A stretch of 64,000 nucleotides of DNA from contig NZ_PPDK01000001.1 of the NCBI RefSeq assembly GCF_003074135.1, positions 930,001 through 994,000 on the forward strand, read 5' to 3'. The notes below the pieces were generated by a model. The model had not been told where the DNA came from. It made no database searches and worked only from the letters and a program-made list of their open reading frames with translations. Position numbers and translations under genes: made by a program. Origin of the DNA: Euzebya tangerina (GTDB taxonomy: Bacteria > Actinomycetota > Nitriliruptoria > Euzebyales > Euzebyaceae). Shown here in pieces: positions 8,648 to 15,179 of this stretch (position 1 is the stretch's first letter; every line of letters starts with the position of its first letter).

Positions 8648-9085
8648 ATGTCCACGACACAACGGGCCACTCGTGCTCGAGGGAACGGCAGGAACAGCGT
8701 GAGCACCCAGGCTCCGACGCGTGAGCGCGTCCGCACCGGTCAGGTGGTCCGTCGCCGCGCCACCGTGCGGCGTGTGGACCCGTGGTCGGTGCTCAAGCTC
8801 TCGGTGATCTTCTACTTCTGCTTCCTGCTGGTGGTCATGCTCGGCCTGGCCGTCTTCTGGTCGGTCGTGTTGCGGATCGGGATCATCGACACGCTGACCA
8901 GCTTCCTCAACGATCTGCAGCTCACGCTGGTGATCAACGGGTCAAACATCGCCCGGGCGATCTTCCTCCTGGGGCTGCTGAACGTGGTGCTCTGGACGGG
9001 TATCAACGTGTTCCTGGCCTTCCTCTACAACCTGGTCTCAGACCTGCTCGGAGGGCTCCGGCTGGAGCTGGCAAGCGAGGAGTAG
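8648..9085 (+). CDS. DUF3566 transmembrane protein
   Basis: A 145-residue membrane protein typical of the gene after gyrA in Actinobacteria. A basic N-terminal section of about 45 residues is followed by a first hydrophobic segment (FYFCFLLVVMLGLAVFWSVVL), a loop, and a second one (AIFLLGLLNVVLWTGINVFLAFLY). Function is unknown; conserved linkage with gyrase genes suggests a housekeeping role. The start is either ATG 8648 (leaderless, see the -10 at 8633) or GTG 8699, which has AGGA upstream and would give 128 residues. Confidence 0.85.
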   Translation: MSTTQRATRARGNGRNSVSTQAPTRERVRTGQVVRRRATVRRVDPWSVLKLSVIFYFCFLLVVMLGLAVFWSVVLRIGIIDTLTSFLNDLQLTLVINGSNIARAIFLLGLLNVVLWTGINVFLAFLYNLVSDLLGGLRLELASEE

Positions 9086-9091
9086 GCGCCG

Positions 9092-9097
9092 TACACT
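9092..9097 (+). promoter_or_regulatory. Probable -10 element TACACT for tRNA-Ile
   Basis: TACACT lies 18 bp before the first base of tRNA-Ile. The same hexamer lies 27 bp before tRNA-Leu at 27687-27692, supporting use as a tRNA promoter -10. No convincing -35 is seen. Confidence 0.4.
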
Positions 9098-9115
9098 CCT
9101 CTGCTCCGCACGTGC

Positions 9116-9189
<74 letters not shown>

Positions 9190-9195
9190 CGGGGA

Positions 9196-9315
9196 CCGAC
9201 TCGCTGCGCTCGCGGTGGACGTCCCTCGCCTGCCGGCTCGCTCCGTCGTCCCCGTGGGCAAGCCCAGGTGTTTGCCTCCGGCGGGCGTTCGGGCCACGCA
9301 GGCCCAGCGTGTTCG
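9196..9315 (+). repeat. tRNA-trailing direct repeat, copy 1
   Basis: About 120 bp starting CCGACTCGCTGCGCTCGCGG a few bases after tRNA-Ile. It recurs almost identically 153 bp downstream (9349-9469) and in diverged form after tRNA-Ala (9861-9998). It contains small perfect hairpins: GGGC-AA-GCCC at 9256-9265 and GGGCC-ACGCA-GGCCC at 9291-9305. The stems suggest structure in RNA or a palindromic interspersed element. Confidence 0.85.
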
Positions 9316-9348
9316 GCTCAGGGGCTGGTCGTCGTGGGCGGTCTGGGG

Positions 9349-9469
9349 CCGACTCGCTTCGCTCGCGGTGGACGTCCCTCGCCTGCCGGCTCGCTCCGTC
9401 GTCCCCGTGGGCAAGCCCAGGTGTTTGCCTCCGGCGGGCGTTCGAGGCCACGCGGGCCGAGCGTGTTCA
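9349..9469 (+). repeat. tRNA-trailing direct repeat, copy 2
   Basis: Second copy of the 120-bp unit, with only a handful of substitutions and one 1-bp length change relative to 9196-9315. The hairpins are kept. Together the two copies fill most of the gap between tRNA-Ile and the DLW-39 gene; predicted ORFs through here are repeat artefacts. Confidence 0.85.
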
Positions 9470-9487
9470 GTGGTTGTTGGTTCTGAT

Positions 9488-9593
9488 GGGCGGTCTGACC
9501 TGGGCGTGGCCTGGTCTGGTGGGTGGACTTCACGCCCGCAGGGCGGGGGAAGTCCACCCACCTCGCCTTGGCGGCGCGTCACGTCAGACCCCC
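9488..9593. other. Large composite hairpin before the DLW-39 gene
   Basis: An outer stem GGTCTGAC (9492-9499) / GTCAGACC (9583-9590) encloses a perfect 13-bp stem GGTGGGTGGACTT (9518-9530) / AAGTCCACCCACC (9550-9562), whose loop has its own CGCCC-GCA-GGGCG stem (9533-9545). There is no U-tract. It may terminate or process the tRNA-Ile transcript, or be a structured RNA or DNA element. Confidence 0.6.
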
Positions 9594-9665
9594 GCGCCCG
9601 TCGTGCCCGAGGCCTGGTCGGGCGCTATATTCACAGTCCGATCCCACAGGAGCGTGACTCACACG

Positions 9666-9779
9666 ATGAAGAAGTTGTTGCTGGTCCTGGCGGCCCTGAC
9701 CGCCGGAGCCCTGGCGCTCAAGCGCCAACGGGACCGCGAGCTCGACGAAGCGATCTGGGAAGAGCCACGCGACCTCTAA
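9666..9779 (+). CDS. DLW-39 family small protein
   Basis: A 37-residue peptide: a short hydrophobic stretch (LLLVLAALTAGALAL), a charged segment and an acidic end containing DEAIWEE. This matches the DLW-39 family of tiny actinobacterial proteins found between the gyrA-linked tRNA-Ile and tRNA-Ala, exactly its position here. AGGAG is at 9648-9652, somewhat far (13 bases) from ATG 9666, and a TATATT -10-like hexamer is at 9626-9631. Probably anchored by its N-terminal segment; function unknown. Confidence 0.8.
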   Translation: MKKLLLVLAALTAGALALKRQRDRELDEAIWEEPRDL

Positions 9780-9789
9780 CTCCATATCT

Positions 9790-9862
9790 GGGGCCATAGC
9801 TCAGTTGGTAGAGCGCTGCCTTTGCAAGGCAGATGCCGGCGGTTCGATTCCGCCTGGCTCCA
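9790..9862 (+). tRNA. alaT: tRNA-Ala (TGC)
   Basis: A complete 73-nt cloverleaf: acceptor GGGGCCA pairs with TGGCTCC (one G-U), TAGCTCAG in the D-arm, anticodon TGC at 9823-9825, and GGTTCGATTCC in the T-arm. CCA is not encoded. Confidence 0.97.
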
Positions 9863-9998
9863 CGGGCGACGACTCGCCTTCGGCTTCGCGTAGCGTCAGT
9901 TGCAGCCTCGCTGCCCCTTCCGCCTCCCCCGTGGACGAGTCCAAGTGTCCTCCACTTCGCTCGGGTCGTTCACGGCCACGCAGGCCAAGCTGGCTCGG
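9861..9998 (+). repeat. Diverged third copy of the tRNA-trailing repeat
   Basis: Directly after tRNA-Ala the sequence CACGGGCGACGACTCGC mirrors the tRNA-Ile flank CACGGGGACCGACTCGC. The later part (CCGTGGACGAGTCCAAGTGT ... GGCCACGCAGGCCAAGC) matches the second half of copies 1 and 2 with many substitutions. No gene is seen between 9863 and 10109. Confidence 0.6.
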
Positions 9999-10109
9999 TA
10001 GGCGCTCGATTCGTGAGCCGGTGAGAGTCAGTCACGCCCACGACCGCGAGTGCACTCGCTGGGCTGGAGGCAACGGGGCACCCCGCGCCCGCGCCTCTAC
10101 CCTGGCGGC

Positions 10110-10643
10110 ATGGCCACCGACGTCGTGCTGCGAGCCTTCACCGAGGAGGACGTGACCGGGTTCAAGCGGTACTGGGACCAGCTCGAGCCGGCCACCGACC
10201 GGGACGGCATGAGCTACGCGAGCACCACGAAGGACGACCAGAGCTTCGCCGAGGACGGCTTCCTGAGCGACGAGCGGGGTCGTCTGGCGGTGATCGCCGA
10301 CGGGACCTTTGCTGGGTTCGTCGGTTGGCGCCGCCGCCAGAACGCCGGGAACAGCATGGCCTGGTGCTGGAACATCGGCGTGGGGATCCTTCGGGATCAC
10401 CGTGGCCAGGGCATCGGCACCGCCGCCCAAGCCCAACTGGTCGACTACCTCTTCGCGACCACACCCGTCGAGCGGATCGAAGCCTCGACCGACGAGGAGA
10501 ACCTTGCGGAGCAGCACGTCCTGGAGTCCCTCGGCTTCACCCGCGAAGGTGTCCTCCGGGCCGGCAACTTCGCCCAAGGCCGCTGGCGCGACATGGTCAT
10601 GTACAGCATCCTCCGCAGTGAGCACCAGCGAGGCGACCGGTGA
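10110..10643 (+). CDS. GNAT-family N-acetyltransferase (RimJ/RimL type)
   Basis: A 177-residue single-domain acetyltransferase. The acetyl-CoA-binding region is visible as WNIGVGILRDHRGQGIGTAAQ, followed by ERIEASTDEENLAEQHVLESLGFTREGVLR, a pattern of RimJ/RimL-like enzymes that acetylate protein N-termini or small amines. The substrate cannot be inferred. ATG 10110 is chosen because upstream residues in the open frame are arginine/proline-rich and non-conserved. It overlaps the next gene by 4 bases, suggesting coupled translation. Confidence 0.85.
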   Translation: MATDVVLRAFTEEDVTGFKRYWDQLEPATDRDGMSYASTTKDDQSFAEDGFLSDERGRLAVIADGTFAGFVGWRRRQNAGNSMAWCWNIGVGILRDHRGQGIGTAAQAQLVDYLFATTPVERIEASTDEENLAEQHVLESLGFTREGVLRAGNFAQGRWRDMVMYSILRSEHQRGDR

Positions 10644-10963
10644 AGCGCCTGATCCTGGTCGTCGTCCTCGCCGGGTTCGTTGCCGCCTTCACCGGCCAGA
10701 TCCCGATCGAGTGGGTGCTCGCCCCGCTCCTCGGCCTGTTCATCTACGCAGTTGGCGTCGCCTCTCTCGGATCCCTGAGGCGGGGAGCCTCCTACATCCC
10801 GGACGGACCTCCCGAACCCGTCGACCCAGCCGAGGAGCGGGTCAGCTACTACTGCACCGGCTGTGGGGCAGAGTTGCTCCTGCTGGTCCGCGGATCAGCG
10901 ACGGCCCCCCGCCACTGTGGCGAGAAGATGCACGAACGCATCGAGACGCCACGCCTCAACTGA
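10640..10963 (+). CDS. Small membrane protein with a C-terminal zinc ribbon
   Basis: A 107-residue protein of unknown function. Two hydrophobic segments (LILVVVLAGFVAAF and VLAPLLGLFIYAVGVASL) lie before a cytoplasmic-looking tail with YYCTGCGAELLLL and RHCGEKM, giving a CxxC plus HC pair able to hold zinc. GTG 10640 overlaps the preceding acetyltransferase stop (GTGA). It converges on crgA, and the gap between them holds a DnaA-box cluster. Confidence 0.7.
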   Translation: MKRLILVVVLAGFVAAFTGQIPIEWVLAPLLGLFIYAVGVASLGSLRRGASYIPDGPPEPVDPAEERVSYYCTGCGAELLLLVRGSATAPRHCGEKMHERIETPRLN

Positions 10964-10969
10964 GGCGGG

Positions 10970-11051
10970 TTGTCCACAGTTGTGGAGAAAACTGTGGATC
11001 AAACAACACACTCGTAGTACACACCGTGTGGCCATCCACAGCTGAGGACAA
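10970..11051. promoter_or_regulatory. Cluster of DnaA boxes in a convergent intergenic gap
   Basis: Within 82 bp there are TTGTCCACA (10970-10978, perfect), TGTGGAGAA (10981-10989, one mismatch), TGTGGATCA (10993-11001, one mismatch to TGTGGATAA), CCATCCACA (11032-11040, two mismatches) and TGAGGACAA (11043-11051, one mismatch). The gap is between the 3' ends of convergent genes, so these are not promoter sites. The cluster is denser than the one in the dnaA-dnaN gap. It could be a second origin element or a DnaA-binding/titration site. Confidence 0.65.
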
Positions 11052-11077
11052 CCTTGGGGACACCGCCCCGAGGACCG

Positions 11078-11308
11078 TCAGCGCCAACGACTCAGGATCA
11101 CCAAGCCGGCGGCCATGAAGATGAACCCGCCGATGATCCAGAGGTTCCCGCCCGGGATCGAGCCACGCAGCAGATAGGTGAGCAGGATCACCACGATCCC
11201 GGACCCGATCAGGCCGGTCCCTGCGATCGGCACCCACGTCGGCGAGGGCGGCGGCTTCGCCTGCGGCGGCGGCTTGTACTGATCGCGTTTGGACTTCGAT
11301 TTGGCCAC
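11078..11308 (-). CDS. crgA: Cell division protein CrgA
   Basis: A 76-residue protein with the CrgA pattern: a basic/proline-rich N-terminus (AKSKSKRDQYKPPPQ, PPPSPTWVP) and two transmembrane helices (GLIGSGIVVILLTYLL and NLWIIGGFIFMAAGLVIL). CrgA is an actinobacterial membrane protein that helps recruit septal peptidoglycan synthases and interacts with FtsZ and FtsI. The GTG start at 11308 gives the conserved opening; the longer open frame reaching upstream is not conserved. It lies back-to-back with the sortase gene. Confidence 0.93.
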   Translation of the reverse strand: MAKSKSKRDQYKPPPQAKPPPSPTWVPIAGTGLIGSGIVVILLTYLLRGSIPGGNLWIIGGFIFMAAGLVILSRWR

Positions 11309-11398
11309 GGTGGCAACCCTTTGTGGACGGGTGAACAGAGGTACAGGGAACCAACAGGGTATCGCCGACGTTGAAATCGTGATCAGAGGAGCCCACCC

Positions 11399-12175
11399 TT
11401 GACCGTCATGCGACTTGTGCTCCGCTCCGTCGGCTGGCTGTTCATCACGGCCGGCGCCGTCGTGGCCCTGTACCTCGTCTACTCGCTGTACTGGACGGGG
11501 CGGACCACCAGCGGGGCTCAAGAGCGACTGCTGGAGGAGCTCGCCCAGGCAACGAACTCCGAGAGCGAGTCCGACTTCGACCTCGAGGTCGGCCCGCTGA
11601 GCGAGCTCGACGCCGATGGCTCCGACCCAACGGCCGAGATCCCCCAGAGCGAGCCCTCCCCAGGTGAGGCCATCGCCGCACAGTTCGAGGAGGGGGACGC
11701 CATCGGCCTCATCGAGTTCTACCGACCGAGCGAGGACACCTCGATCGTCATCGATGACCCCGTCGTGGTGGTCGAGGGTGTCTCGATCGAGGTGCTGAAG
11801 GAAGGACCAGGCCGGTACCCCTCCACGTCATACCCGGGCCAACCTGGCAACTTCGCCGTCGCGGGACACCGCACCACCTACGGAGCGCCGTTCTGGAACC
11901 TGGACCAACTCCAGGACGGCGACGAGATCCACGTGACCGACCGCGAGGGGACGACCTGGATCTATGAGTTCTCCGAGGAGGTCATCGTCGCCCCGGCCGA
12001 CGTCTCCGTGCTGGACGCCAACCCGTTGGAGAGCGACCGACCCGTGCTGACGCTGACCACCTGCCATCCACGGTGGTCCCAGCGGGAGCGACTGATCGTC
12101 CACGCGGAGCTCAGTGAGGAGCAGATGCCACTGGTCGCGGCGGGCACGATTGCCATCGGCGAGGGGGCACCGTGA
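11399..12175 (+). CDS. srtE: Class E sortase
   Basis: A 258-residue membrane-anchored transpeptidase. An N-terminal helix (LFITAGAVVALYLVYSLY) is followed by an acidic linker and the sortase barrel with NFAVAGHRTTYGAPFWNLDQL (catalytic histidine) and TLTTCHPRWSQRERLIV (catalytic cysteine and arginine). Class E enzymes attach surface proteins carrying LAXTG-type signals to the wall in high-GC Gram-positives. AGAGGAG at 11385-11391 favours TTG 11399 over ATG 11408. Its stop overlaps the start of a 39-residue membrane peptide. Confidence 0.92.
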   Translation: MTVMRLVLRSVGWLFITAGAVVALYLVYSLYWTGRTTSGAQERLLEELAQATNSESESDFDLEVGPLSELDADGSDPTAEIPQSEPSPGEAIAAQFEEGDAIGLIEFYRPSEDTSIVIDDPVVVVEGVSIEVLKEGPGRYPSTSYPGQPGNFAVAGHRTTYGAPFWNLDQLQDGDEIHVTDREGTTWIYEFSEEVIVAPADVSVLDANPLESDRPVLTLTTCHPRWSQRERLIVHAELSEEQMPLVAAGTIAIGEGAP

Positions 12176-12291
12176 ACAAGGCCGTCAAGGCACTGGTGAT
12201 CCTGGTCGCGCTCGCAGCCGCCGTGGTGATCCTCTTCACCTACGTCTTCCCCTGGTTCGACGCGACCTTCATCACCGACCCCACCCTCTGA
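12172..12291 (+). CDS. Tiny single-pass membrane peptide coupled to the sortase
   Basis: GTG 12172 overlaps the sortase stop codon (GTGA) and opens a 39-residue frame: MNKAVK, a hydrophobic stretch ALVILVALAAAVVILFTYV, then PWFDATFITDPTL. The layout (basic N-terminus, one helix, short acidic tail) and translational coupling argue it is real although very short. No family is recognised; it could assist sortase. Confidence 0.55.
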   Translation: MNKAVKALVILVALAAAVVILFTYVFPWFDATFITDPTL

Positions 12292-12347
12292 GCCGGGGTG
12301 ACCCACTCGGGTGTGGCGTGGAAGACTGTTGAGCCGTAGCTGTCGAA

Positions 12348-15179
12348 GTGGACAGCGCAGAAGACGAGGAACCGGTGGCAGACCAGGACCCCAGTACCGA
12401 AGATCGGGCCGCGCTCGCGGAACAGGCTGCGCGTGACGCCCGGCGTGTTGCCGCGCAACAAGCAGCCGCTCGGCGCGCCAACCAGGCCGCTCGGCGGGCT
12501 GGTGGCCCAACCCGCCGTCCGCCTGCCGTCCGGACGTCCTCCGGGGCCGAGCGAACGAGTCCTCCGGCGCCGGTCGTGGGGCAGCGCCGCCCGGTGTCGG
12601 ACGCGCCCCCCGCGACGCGCCCCCGCAGCCGAACAGCGTCCCCGGCCCGCCCCGCGTCCCCGCGGCATGGGGGCGACACTCCTCTGTCACCGGCAGCACG
12701 CCGCGGCGGCGGTCCAACGCCGACCCAGCCCCAGCCCCGTCCCGGCGCTCGTCCGCCCGCCGTCCGTCGAACGCCGCCGCGGCCACTCGATCGCCCGATC
12801 GTTCGCGAGGTCGACCCTGGACCGTCGCCCGCCCCCGCGGCGGAGCGACCGGAGCGAGCCTCGGAGCCCACGACCCCCGCCCCCGCGGACCCCTCTCCCA
12901 GTCCCACTGAACGCGAGGGCATCTACAGCGGCCAGCCGACGACCATCCCCGAGCTGCCCTCCCCGCCGTTCCCCCGCTCGAGCAGCGGGGCTGCCGAGCC
13001 GGCACTGCGCCTTCCTGACCCGCCTCGTCCCGCGCCGGCGCAGGACGTCACCTCGGCTGACTCGCCTCACGCCGGATCCGGGCCGGAGGAGGAGGCCACA
13101 GCGGGCACCGACGGACCGACGGGAGGTGGACCCGACGCCGCAGCACCTGGCGCCCCCGTCTCGATCAAGACAGCCAAGATCGACATCGAGTTGCCTGATG
13201 CCGACGACGTGGGCCCGCAGGTCCTGCGGCCGTTGCCGGACCCGCCTCGGGACACGATCGACGCCGACCACACCGCGGACGAGGCTGACGCAGCGGACCA
13301 GACCCCCACCACCGACCCGCCTCCGGACGTCGCCACGCCATCGACGGACGGCCCCACCGAGGACGCCACCCCCGACGACGCCCAACAGGACCCCACCCCC
13401 GAGGACGCCACCCCCGAGGACGCCACCCCCGACGACGACCCACACCATGACGACCCCTCCGGCTCGACCTCGAACGTGGACCCGGTCGCCGAGTCCAGCA
13501 CGGCGGCTGACGAGGACCCCCTAGCCCGCGCCGAGTCCCCGTCCCCGGACGCCGTCGCCACGCAGGCCACCACCGACCTGAGCGAGGTCGTCGGCACCTG
13601 GCAGAGCGGCGTCGACGCCACCGCACGACCCTGGATCCGGCAGTACGCCCCCGGTGTCCCGGACACCTACCGCTATCCGCTGGTGCCCCTCACACGGCTG
13701 CTCGATGATGCCGCCCAGGACTTCCCCGACACGCCAGGGATCTCGTTCCTCGGCTCCCGGGTGACCTTCCGACAGATGGCCACGCAGGTCGATCAGTTGG
13801 CGACCGCGCTGACCGAGCTCGGCCTGAAGGCGGGGGACCGCATCGCGGTTGCGCTGCCGTGGATCCCCCAACTCGTCCTCATGCTGAACGCCTGCTGGCG
13901 GCTCGGGGTGGAGGTCGTCCTCATCGACCCCGAAGAGTCGCCGGAGGTCGTCGCCGAGGGGATCCGCGAGACCGAGCCCGCGGCCATCCTCATCCTCGAC
14001 ACGACCTACGGCGGGCTGGTGGAGTTCCGCAGCCAACTGCGGAGCGTCCGTCACGTCATCGCCACCGGCCTGCTCGACGCCCTGCCGGCGATCAAGGCGC
14101 GGATGCAGTCCATCCGGCTGAAGGTGCAGCATGCCGCGATGCCCGAAGCCGACGGCGTCCTGCCGTTCCGGGCCGTGCTCGAGTCGGCCAGCCCGGTCGC
14201 CACCCAGGCCGCGGTCGATGTGGAGGCGACCACCGCCACCAGCACGGTGATCGGCGGCGTGACGTACGCGGCCTCCCACCACAACGTCCTGGCTGGAGCC
14301 TTCCAGGCCCGCCTCTGGATCCCGGACGTGAGGGCGGGGCGGGAGAGCGTCATGGTGGCCGGCAACCCAACCGACTCCTTTGGGCTTGCCGCCGGGATCG
14401 GACTCGCCCTGCTGTCCGCCGCCACGCTGGTGCTGCCGGACCCGCGCCCCGGCGGGGTGGCCAAGTCGATCGACGCCGAACGGCCCACGATCCTGGTCAC
14501 GTCGATGGACCAGGTCCGGACTATGTTGGCGCCGGCCTCCAAGCGCCGGGATCTCTCGTCGGTGCGCGTGACGATCGCGCGTGGGGTGCACTTCGACCCA
14601 GTCGTGAAGCGTGCGGCCGAGAGTCGGACGGCCGGGCGGTTTCGGATGGCCTACTCCGGGGCGGCTGTCTCGGGCATCGCCCACGCCGAGTCCGTGTACG
14701 CCGATGGCGCCAGCAACGGGGCCGGACTGCCGGTGACGGACACCGTCGTGGAATGCCTGGACGACGCCGGGACACCAACCGAGCCAGATACCGTCGGTGC
14801 GCTGGTGGCCAGCGGCCCCCAGGTCGCGGGCGAACAGGTCCCGCTCGGACTGATCGGATCGATCAGCGCCGCAGGGTATGTCAGCGTCATCGGAGCCGGT
14901 GAGTCCGTTGTTCGACTGAGCGACGGGGCAGCCGATGTCGGCGTCGTCCGGACGGCCTTGCGCCGTAGCCCCGACGTCGTCGAGGTTGAGGTCCAAGCCG
15001 TTCCAGACGGCCGCGGCGTCGGCCTGGCGGCCCGCGTCTCGGTGACGAGGGAGGGCATCACGCAGGACACGCTCCGGAAGGTCCTGACCGAGAACGCCCC
15101 GGCACAGAGCCACCCGACCGAGTGGCACATCGAGGTCGTGTCGGCCGGAGTCGACCCGGACGAGGAGTCGACCCCGTGA
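12348..15179 (+). CDS. Large protein: disordered N-terminus plus degenerate acyl-AMP-ligase-like domain
   Basis: A 943-residue protein in two parts. Residues 1 to about 435 are low-complexity, rich in Ala, Pro, Arg then Asp/Glu/Thr, with [10 protein letters not shown] repeats. From about 441 the fold of an adenylate-forming (ANL) enzyme is recognisable ([45 protein letters not shown]). The phosphate-binding motif normally TSGTTGxPK is replaced by [15 protein letters not shown], and the usual YGxTE motif and catalytic C-terminal lysine are not seen, so catalysis is doubtful. GTG 12348; it overlaps pabA by 4 bases. Probably a scaffold or sensor; function unknown. Confidence 0.75.

Follow-up and report, generated by a model that had tools for sequence, protein, structure and literature searches.

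A DnaA-box cluster conserved past the crgA stop codon in many Actinomycetota: a probable site of replication control, and less likely a second start point

Chromosomal clusters of DnaA boxes in Bacillus subtilis and Streptomyces coelicolor are described, in the relevant passages of PMC5742627 and PMC4585315, as repressing untimely initiation. In the corresponding passage of PMC5742627, datA is reported to act after initiation and to depend on IHF. The core of a DARS site, as outlined in the part of PMC8682772 that deals with it, generally comprises three boxes, two of them opposed and the third in line.

The window analyzed here, i.e. the whole stretch of 64,000 nucleotides, was scanned with the box consensus TTRTCCACA. 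The earlier note had placed a five-box cluster, denser than the dnaA–dnaN gap, between convergent genes about 10 kb from dnaA, and each of these points is borne out. One perfect box, three boxes with one mismatch and one with two mismatches lie at 10970–11051, forming two head-to-head pairs and an intervening box: (i) the perfect box TTGTCCACA (10970–10978, plus strand) opposes the one-mismatch box TTCTCCACA (10981–10989, minus strand) at an offset of 11, as in relatives; (ii) a third core box with one mismatch, TGATCCACA (10993–11001, minus strand), follows the 10981 box at a conserved offset of 12; (iii) a weak box with two mismatches, CCATCCACA (11032–11040, plus strand), opposes the one-mismatch box TTGTCCTCA (11043–11051, minus strand), again at an offset of 11. 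The second pair is 62 bp from the first, and two other loci (L011 and L012) also carry two opposed pairs each, 63 bp apart. With two mismatches allowed, the crgA gap contains eight box matches within 100 bp, the maximum of the window, followed by the dnaA–dnaN gap with six. The window as a whole shows no excess of boxes (eight with at most one mismatch versus a shuffle mean of 8.8); what is unusual is their grouping, since four of the eight fall within 82 bp and three more in the 323-bp dnaA–dnaN gap. Genome-wide, TTNTCCACA occurs 59 times versus 18 times for the reversed control.

The convergent genes flanking the cluster are an open reading frame of 107 amino acids (10640–10963, plus strand), zinc-ribbon-like by eye and without a Pfam match, and crgA (11078–11308, minus strand), which starts with GTG and encodes a 76-residue cell division protein (PF06781, E-value 7.6e-10). 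A GC-rich inverted repeat (11052–11073), detected by RNA folding and devoid of a T-run, separates the boxes from the crgA stop codon and may help to end transcription. The presumed oriC spans 724–1046, from the end of the frame encoding the DnaA C-terminal domain (723) to the start of dnaN (1047); it holds three boxes with at most one mismatch. Pfam matches in the window correspond to the DnaA C-terminal domain, DnaN, a RecF-type ATPase, GyrB, GyrA, DUF3566, a GNAT protein and, after crgA, a sortase; genes for tRNA-Ile and tRNA-Ala sit between the DUF3566 and GNAT genes. An RNA family was rejected as the conserved feature, the RNA-family matches in region 9000–12500 being these two tRNAs only. 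Note that two relatives have second, diverged dnaN copies (G001:C2:64156–65295, on the smaller contig of that genome, and G007:C1:1541481–1542551), 33% and 38% identical, respectively, to DnaN of the window, and that in a third (G015:C21:260381–261507) dnaN is split into five pieces lying in different frames and the DnaA_C match into two, reflecting either frameshift errors or broken genes.

The earlier note had also suggested looking for conservation of this gap beside crgA, and such conservation is found across the phylum. Loci were scored as positive when the 300 bp following the crgA stop codon contained at least two boxes matching TTRTCCMCA with at most one mismatch. In the order to which the window belongs, CrgA was detected in 27 of 30 genomes and 24 of the 27 loci are positive, versus none with a cluster in the 300 bp preceding the crgA start; one locus with 47 bp only after crgA (L027) was counted as a miss here and among the 27 loci analyzed for box spacing, and was left out of the phylum total given below. 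PF06781 matches were obtained in 105 of 246 genomes. Outside the order, 90 of 94 places were read (those in G089 and G137 and the second ones in G087 and G217 were omitted; two of the 90 loci come from one genome, G068): 53 have at least two boxes after the stop codon, as opposed to two with at least two boxes before the start codon. Box density in these loci reaches 12.7 per kb in the first 100 bp past the stop codon and is at most 1.0 per kb in every 100-bp bin ahead of it. Altogether, 77 of 116 loci are positive versus 28 of 2320 dinucleotide shuffles. The possibility of a chance cluster was rejected, given the window-maximum density and the recurrence after the crgA stop codon far above shuffles.

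Positive loci are present in 18 of the 28 families outside the order, including all eight loci of a family that we take, partly from its CrgA sequence, to be Streptomyces-like (f23). All seven loci of family f29 are positive as well; CrgA of one of them (L117) matches the solved CrgA structure 2MMU (E-value 2.8e-56), and we take this locus to be of the Mycobacterium type on the basis of that sequence match. The element is not universal, since 39 of the 116 loci lack two boxes, and families f11, f40, f44 and f50 are among those that have no positive locus. Frames judged CsoR-like by eye directly follow crgA in L172, L188, L204 and L215, where zero or one box is found; only such clear cases were considered, because calling neighboring genes is unreliable in GC-rich DNA, where shadow frames abound. 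A query of named genomes with a single CrgA protein retrieved no relative, and a query with a CrgA alignment retrieved eight loci, which appear to be those of eight genomes of the order already counted and bring no new evidence.

The spacing of the boxes is conserved too. Both within and outside the order, inverted pairs peak at offsets of 11 and 23 and direct pairs at 12; opposed pairs number 25 at offset 11 in the order and, outside it, 11 at 11, 8 at 12 and 2 at 14. The resulting three-box core (opposed pair at 11, in-line third box at 12), defined with at most two mismatches per box and at least one box with at most one mismatch, is found at 23 of the 27 crgA loci of the order versus none of 181 control tiles, and at 27 of the 90 other loci versus 2 of 440 tiles. 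Of the 23 aligned pairs of the order, 22 are accompanied on one side by a further box (at most two mismatches), always at an offset of exactly 12. Conservation of both place and exact spacing over the 18 families implies selection. What the sequence shows directly is that the boxes are clustered, conserved, fixed in geometry and close to dnaA. In seven loci of the order (L014, L017, L021, L025, L030, L031 and L033), a GGAAYTCC-like motif, perhaps recognized by a different protein, is observed some 30 bp ahead of the third box.

Palindromic pairs of the form TTRTCCMCA-2-TGKGGAYAA (at most two mismatches) occur in 27 of the 30 genomes of the order, the reversed control giving zero in 29 of 30. 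Many of them are the crgA site itself; genomes with sites elsewhere include G000 (the window genome), G001, G002, G003 and G004. Two draft genomes without detected CrgA (G022 and G012), in which crgA is likely to have been lost, retain the three-box core (L081:1489–1520 and L072:1501–1532) between a zinc-ribbon-like gene and a DUF881-like gene, both identified by eye; the flanking genes run in tandem there, instead of being convergent. In family f6, the cluster accompanies crgA in 4 of 12 loci only, and in all seven loci examined for it (L149–L155) the palindrome is found 0–167 bp before an open frame encoding a DnaA-like GLGKTH motif, indicating that the place of the element is not fixed; it likewise precedes a DnaA-like frame in a locus of another family (L159). 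This position in f6 ties the palindrome to DnaA and is the best sign that DnaA may read it. A second palindromic pair in the window genome (L087:1501–1520, i.e. G000:C1:696566–696585) is followed, about 160 bp further on, by a frame judged by eye to be dnaB-like, i.e. to encode the replicative helicase. G001 and G002 share a perfect palindrome (L084:1501–1520 and L085:1501–1520) with common flanking sequence; in L084, it comes after a long frame resembling an FtsK/HerA-like ATPase by eye.

Our favored interpretation, held with moderate confidence, is that a conserved element for the control of DnaA, distinct from the origin, occupies the gap beside crgA; it would probably control chromosome copying rather than serve as a second start point. 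DnaA would bind the three-box core and the weaker boxes; this binding and the direction of its effect are what we infer. Because it lies 10–85 kb from dnaA, the element would double soon after each initiation, and the pool of free or active DnaA would then drop, either by titration or by a change in the nucleotide state of DnaA favored by the head-to-head geometry. The lowered pool would restrain re-initiation. Against such a restraint, a DARS-like geometry would suggest, by analogy, activation, and against the DnaA-control interpretation as a whole, the strict three-box core is present in only the 27 of 90 loci mentioned above. In a more specific and tentative version, possible though doubtful, the crgA 3' end would carry a DARS-type three-box element across Actinomycetota, the 11-bp pair forcing DnaA to dimerize and thereby to change its bound nucleotide, so that the element would be the nucleotide switch of the phylum.

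Among the alternatives, control of the transcription of crgA or of its neighbor by DnaA, or by a regulator with a similar site, which would couple replication to division, is rather unlikely. It fits with crgA being the commonest neighbor found and with the palindromes located before dnaA in f6 and before the dnaB-like frame in the window genome, which would suit promoter control; however, the boxes are located beyond the crgA stop codon, few loci having them before the start codon (0/27 and 2/90), the neighboring genes vary among lineages in the clear cases, and the core persists in genomes without detected crgA.

That DnaA is bound passively, the cluster being one box site among many with no measurable role, is distinctly unlikely: while the total number of boxes in the window does not exceed that of shuffles and genome G184 has two other places as dense as or denser than its crgA cluster, which ranks third in box density, such passive binding does not account for the selection implied by the conserved place and exact spacing in 18 of the 28 families. 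Note that the Streptomyces-like genome G184 has another place outside the origin where four boxes fall within 150 bp (G184:C1:3418261), about 37 kb from dnaA on its other side.

The earlier note had proposed two roles for the cluster, a second part of a bipartite origin or a DnaA-titration site. Wide conservation and fixed geometry lend support, at the level of sequence, to a titration or control site; the bipartite origin is not supported. The GC skew of the 64-kb window is so flat that it does not locate an origin. Over 400 kb of G184, where crgA and dnaA are 55 kb apart, cumulative skew is lowest at position 3456150. This point is 54 kb away from crgA and about 1.1 kb from where the dnaA domain ends, so that the minimum is found at dnaA–dnaN and no skew inversion is seen at the second cluster. 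Known bipartite origins have a spacer of up to roughly 2 kb according to the passage on this point in PMC4285127, versus a crgA–dnaA distance of 10.6–85.4 kb (median 21.7 kb) for the 32 same-contig pairs, from 32 genomes, among the matches listed. A bipartite origin at the crgA gap is unlikely, and we regard as very improbable the proposal that the boxes either contribute to a bipartite origin or constitute the true one, DNA being unwound or helicase loaded at the crgA gap. This proposal would be consistent with the presence of dense boxes close to dnaA, with the base composition of the crgA gap, which at 57.5% GC is AT-richer than the surrounding genome and similar to the dnaA–dnaN gap (59.4%), and with the situation in G100, where the skew minimum, at 257483, falls in the interval bounded by dnaA (227 kb) and crgA (281 kb) and where the crgA cluster ranks first in box density. 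Yet the dnaA–dnaN gaps of relatives in the order hold boxes of their own, of the same types and more widely spaced.

Finally, a bidirectional terminator whose hairpin reads as DnaA boxes by accident, for which the convergent gap, its inverted repeats and an RNA fold z-score of −2.98 could speak, is highly improbable, because no terminator-like T-run site is found at the crgA gap, of the 23 loci of the order, 9 have an unpaired position 7 and 8 an unpaired position 2 between the opposed arms, with each arm keeping a box-like sequence (so that two half-sites are preserved, not an RNA hairpin), the third box at offset 12 is left unexplained, the core is retained where genes run in tandem and the palindrome also precedes dnaA. 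An intrinsic terminator was accordingly rejected as the conserved feature, since a T-run was not found and stem pairing is not kept.

To our knowledge, the block on a second round of initiation is poorly understood in mycobacteria, streptomycetes and their relatives, and we know of no Hda-like or SeqA-like control in Actinomycetota. A DnaA-control element at the crgA gap would offer a single target across many actinobacterial families, removable without touching crgA, and its position beside a cell-division gene raises the possibility of a link between replication and division. With this resemblance to the DARS core, what was a loose notion of titration becomes a question of box spacing and nucleotide exchange that can be put to a direct test; if the DARS-type interpretation is true, the switch would be sited so that its copy number doubles right after initiation. 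We found no description of the phylum-wide link to crgA and of the fixed geometry in the (mostly open-access) literature on crgA, DnaA binding and actinobacterial box clusters. The passages on crgA in PMC4255298, which give the Streptomyces gene as SCO3854, do not mention DnaA boxes, nor do the corresponding ones in PMC3989709, and the relevant section of PMC13270200 discusses Streptomyces DnaA-box clusters within oriC only.

How does the element compare with known DnaA-control sites? For E. coli K-12, the gaps presumed to hold DARS1, DARS2 and datA were read. datA (L163), a site of IHF-dependent hydrolysis of ATP bound to DnaA, is also an intergenic cluster. It combines two boxes in direct orientation (2733 and 2745) with two opposed ones (2907 and 2919), the offset being 12 in both cases; its boxes span about 240 bp, without a compact three-box core like that at crgA. 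Such a core, with boxes I and II opposed and III in line, is what the window, 23 of the 27 loci of the order and 27 of the 90 others have in common with DARS. In DARS1 (L162), the boxes at 1108 (plus), 1122 (minus) and 1134 (minus) have the same order and orientation, and the third is in line at offset 12, as here; the opposed pair is at 14, whereas the crgA-side pairs peak at 11, with two pairs at 14 outside the order. For DARS2, the scan with two mismatches gave the middle core box alone, the other boxes being recognized by eye. Both DARS sites, which promote the release of ADP by DnaA, are away from oriC, unlike the crgA-side element, and the resemblance is one of design, not proof of descent or activity.

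In its setting, with several intergenic boxes outside oriC yet near it (10.6–85.4 kb from dnaA in the 32 pairs listed), the element resembles the near-origin clusters of Streptomyces and Bacillus, a type characterized by DnaA binding and by extra initiation upon loss. Those of B. subtilis are likewise box clusters outside oriC and are said, in the passages that describe them, to repress untimely initiation. The S. coelicolor cluster (Smulczyk-Krawczyszyn et al. 2006) is near oriC, actinobacterial and represses untimely initiation, as portrayed in the passages that cite it, which do not mention conservation or a three-box geometry across families. This cluster may be the same locus as the crgA-side element. 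It may be the one called H69, and the cosmid of the same name presumably carries crgA. If the two are identical, then the function of the element is already known in one species, and what is new is its wide conservation and its geometry.
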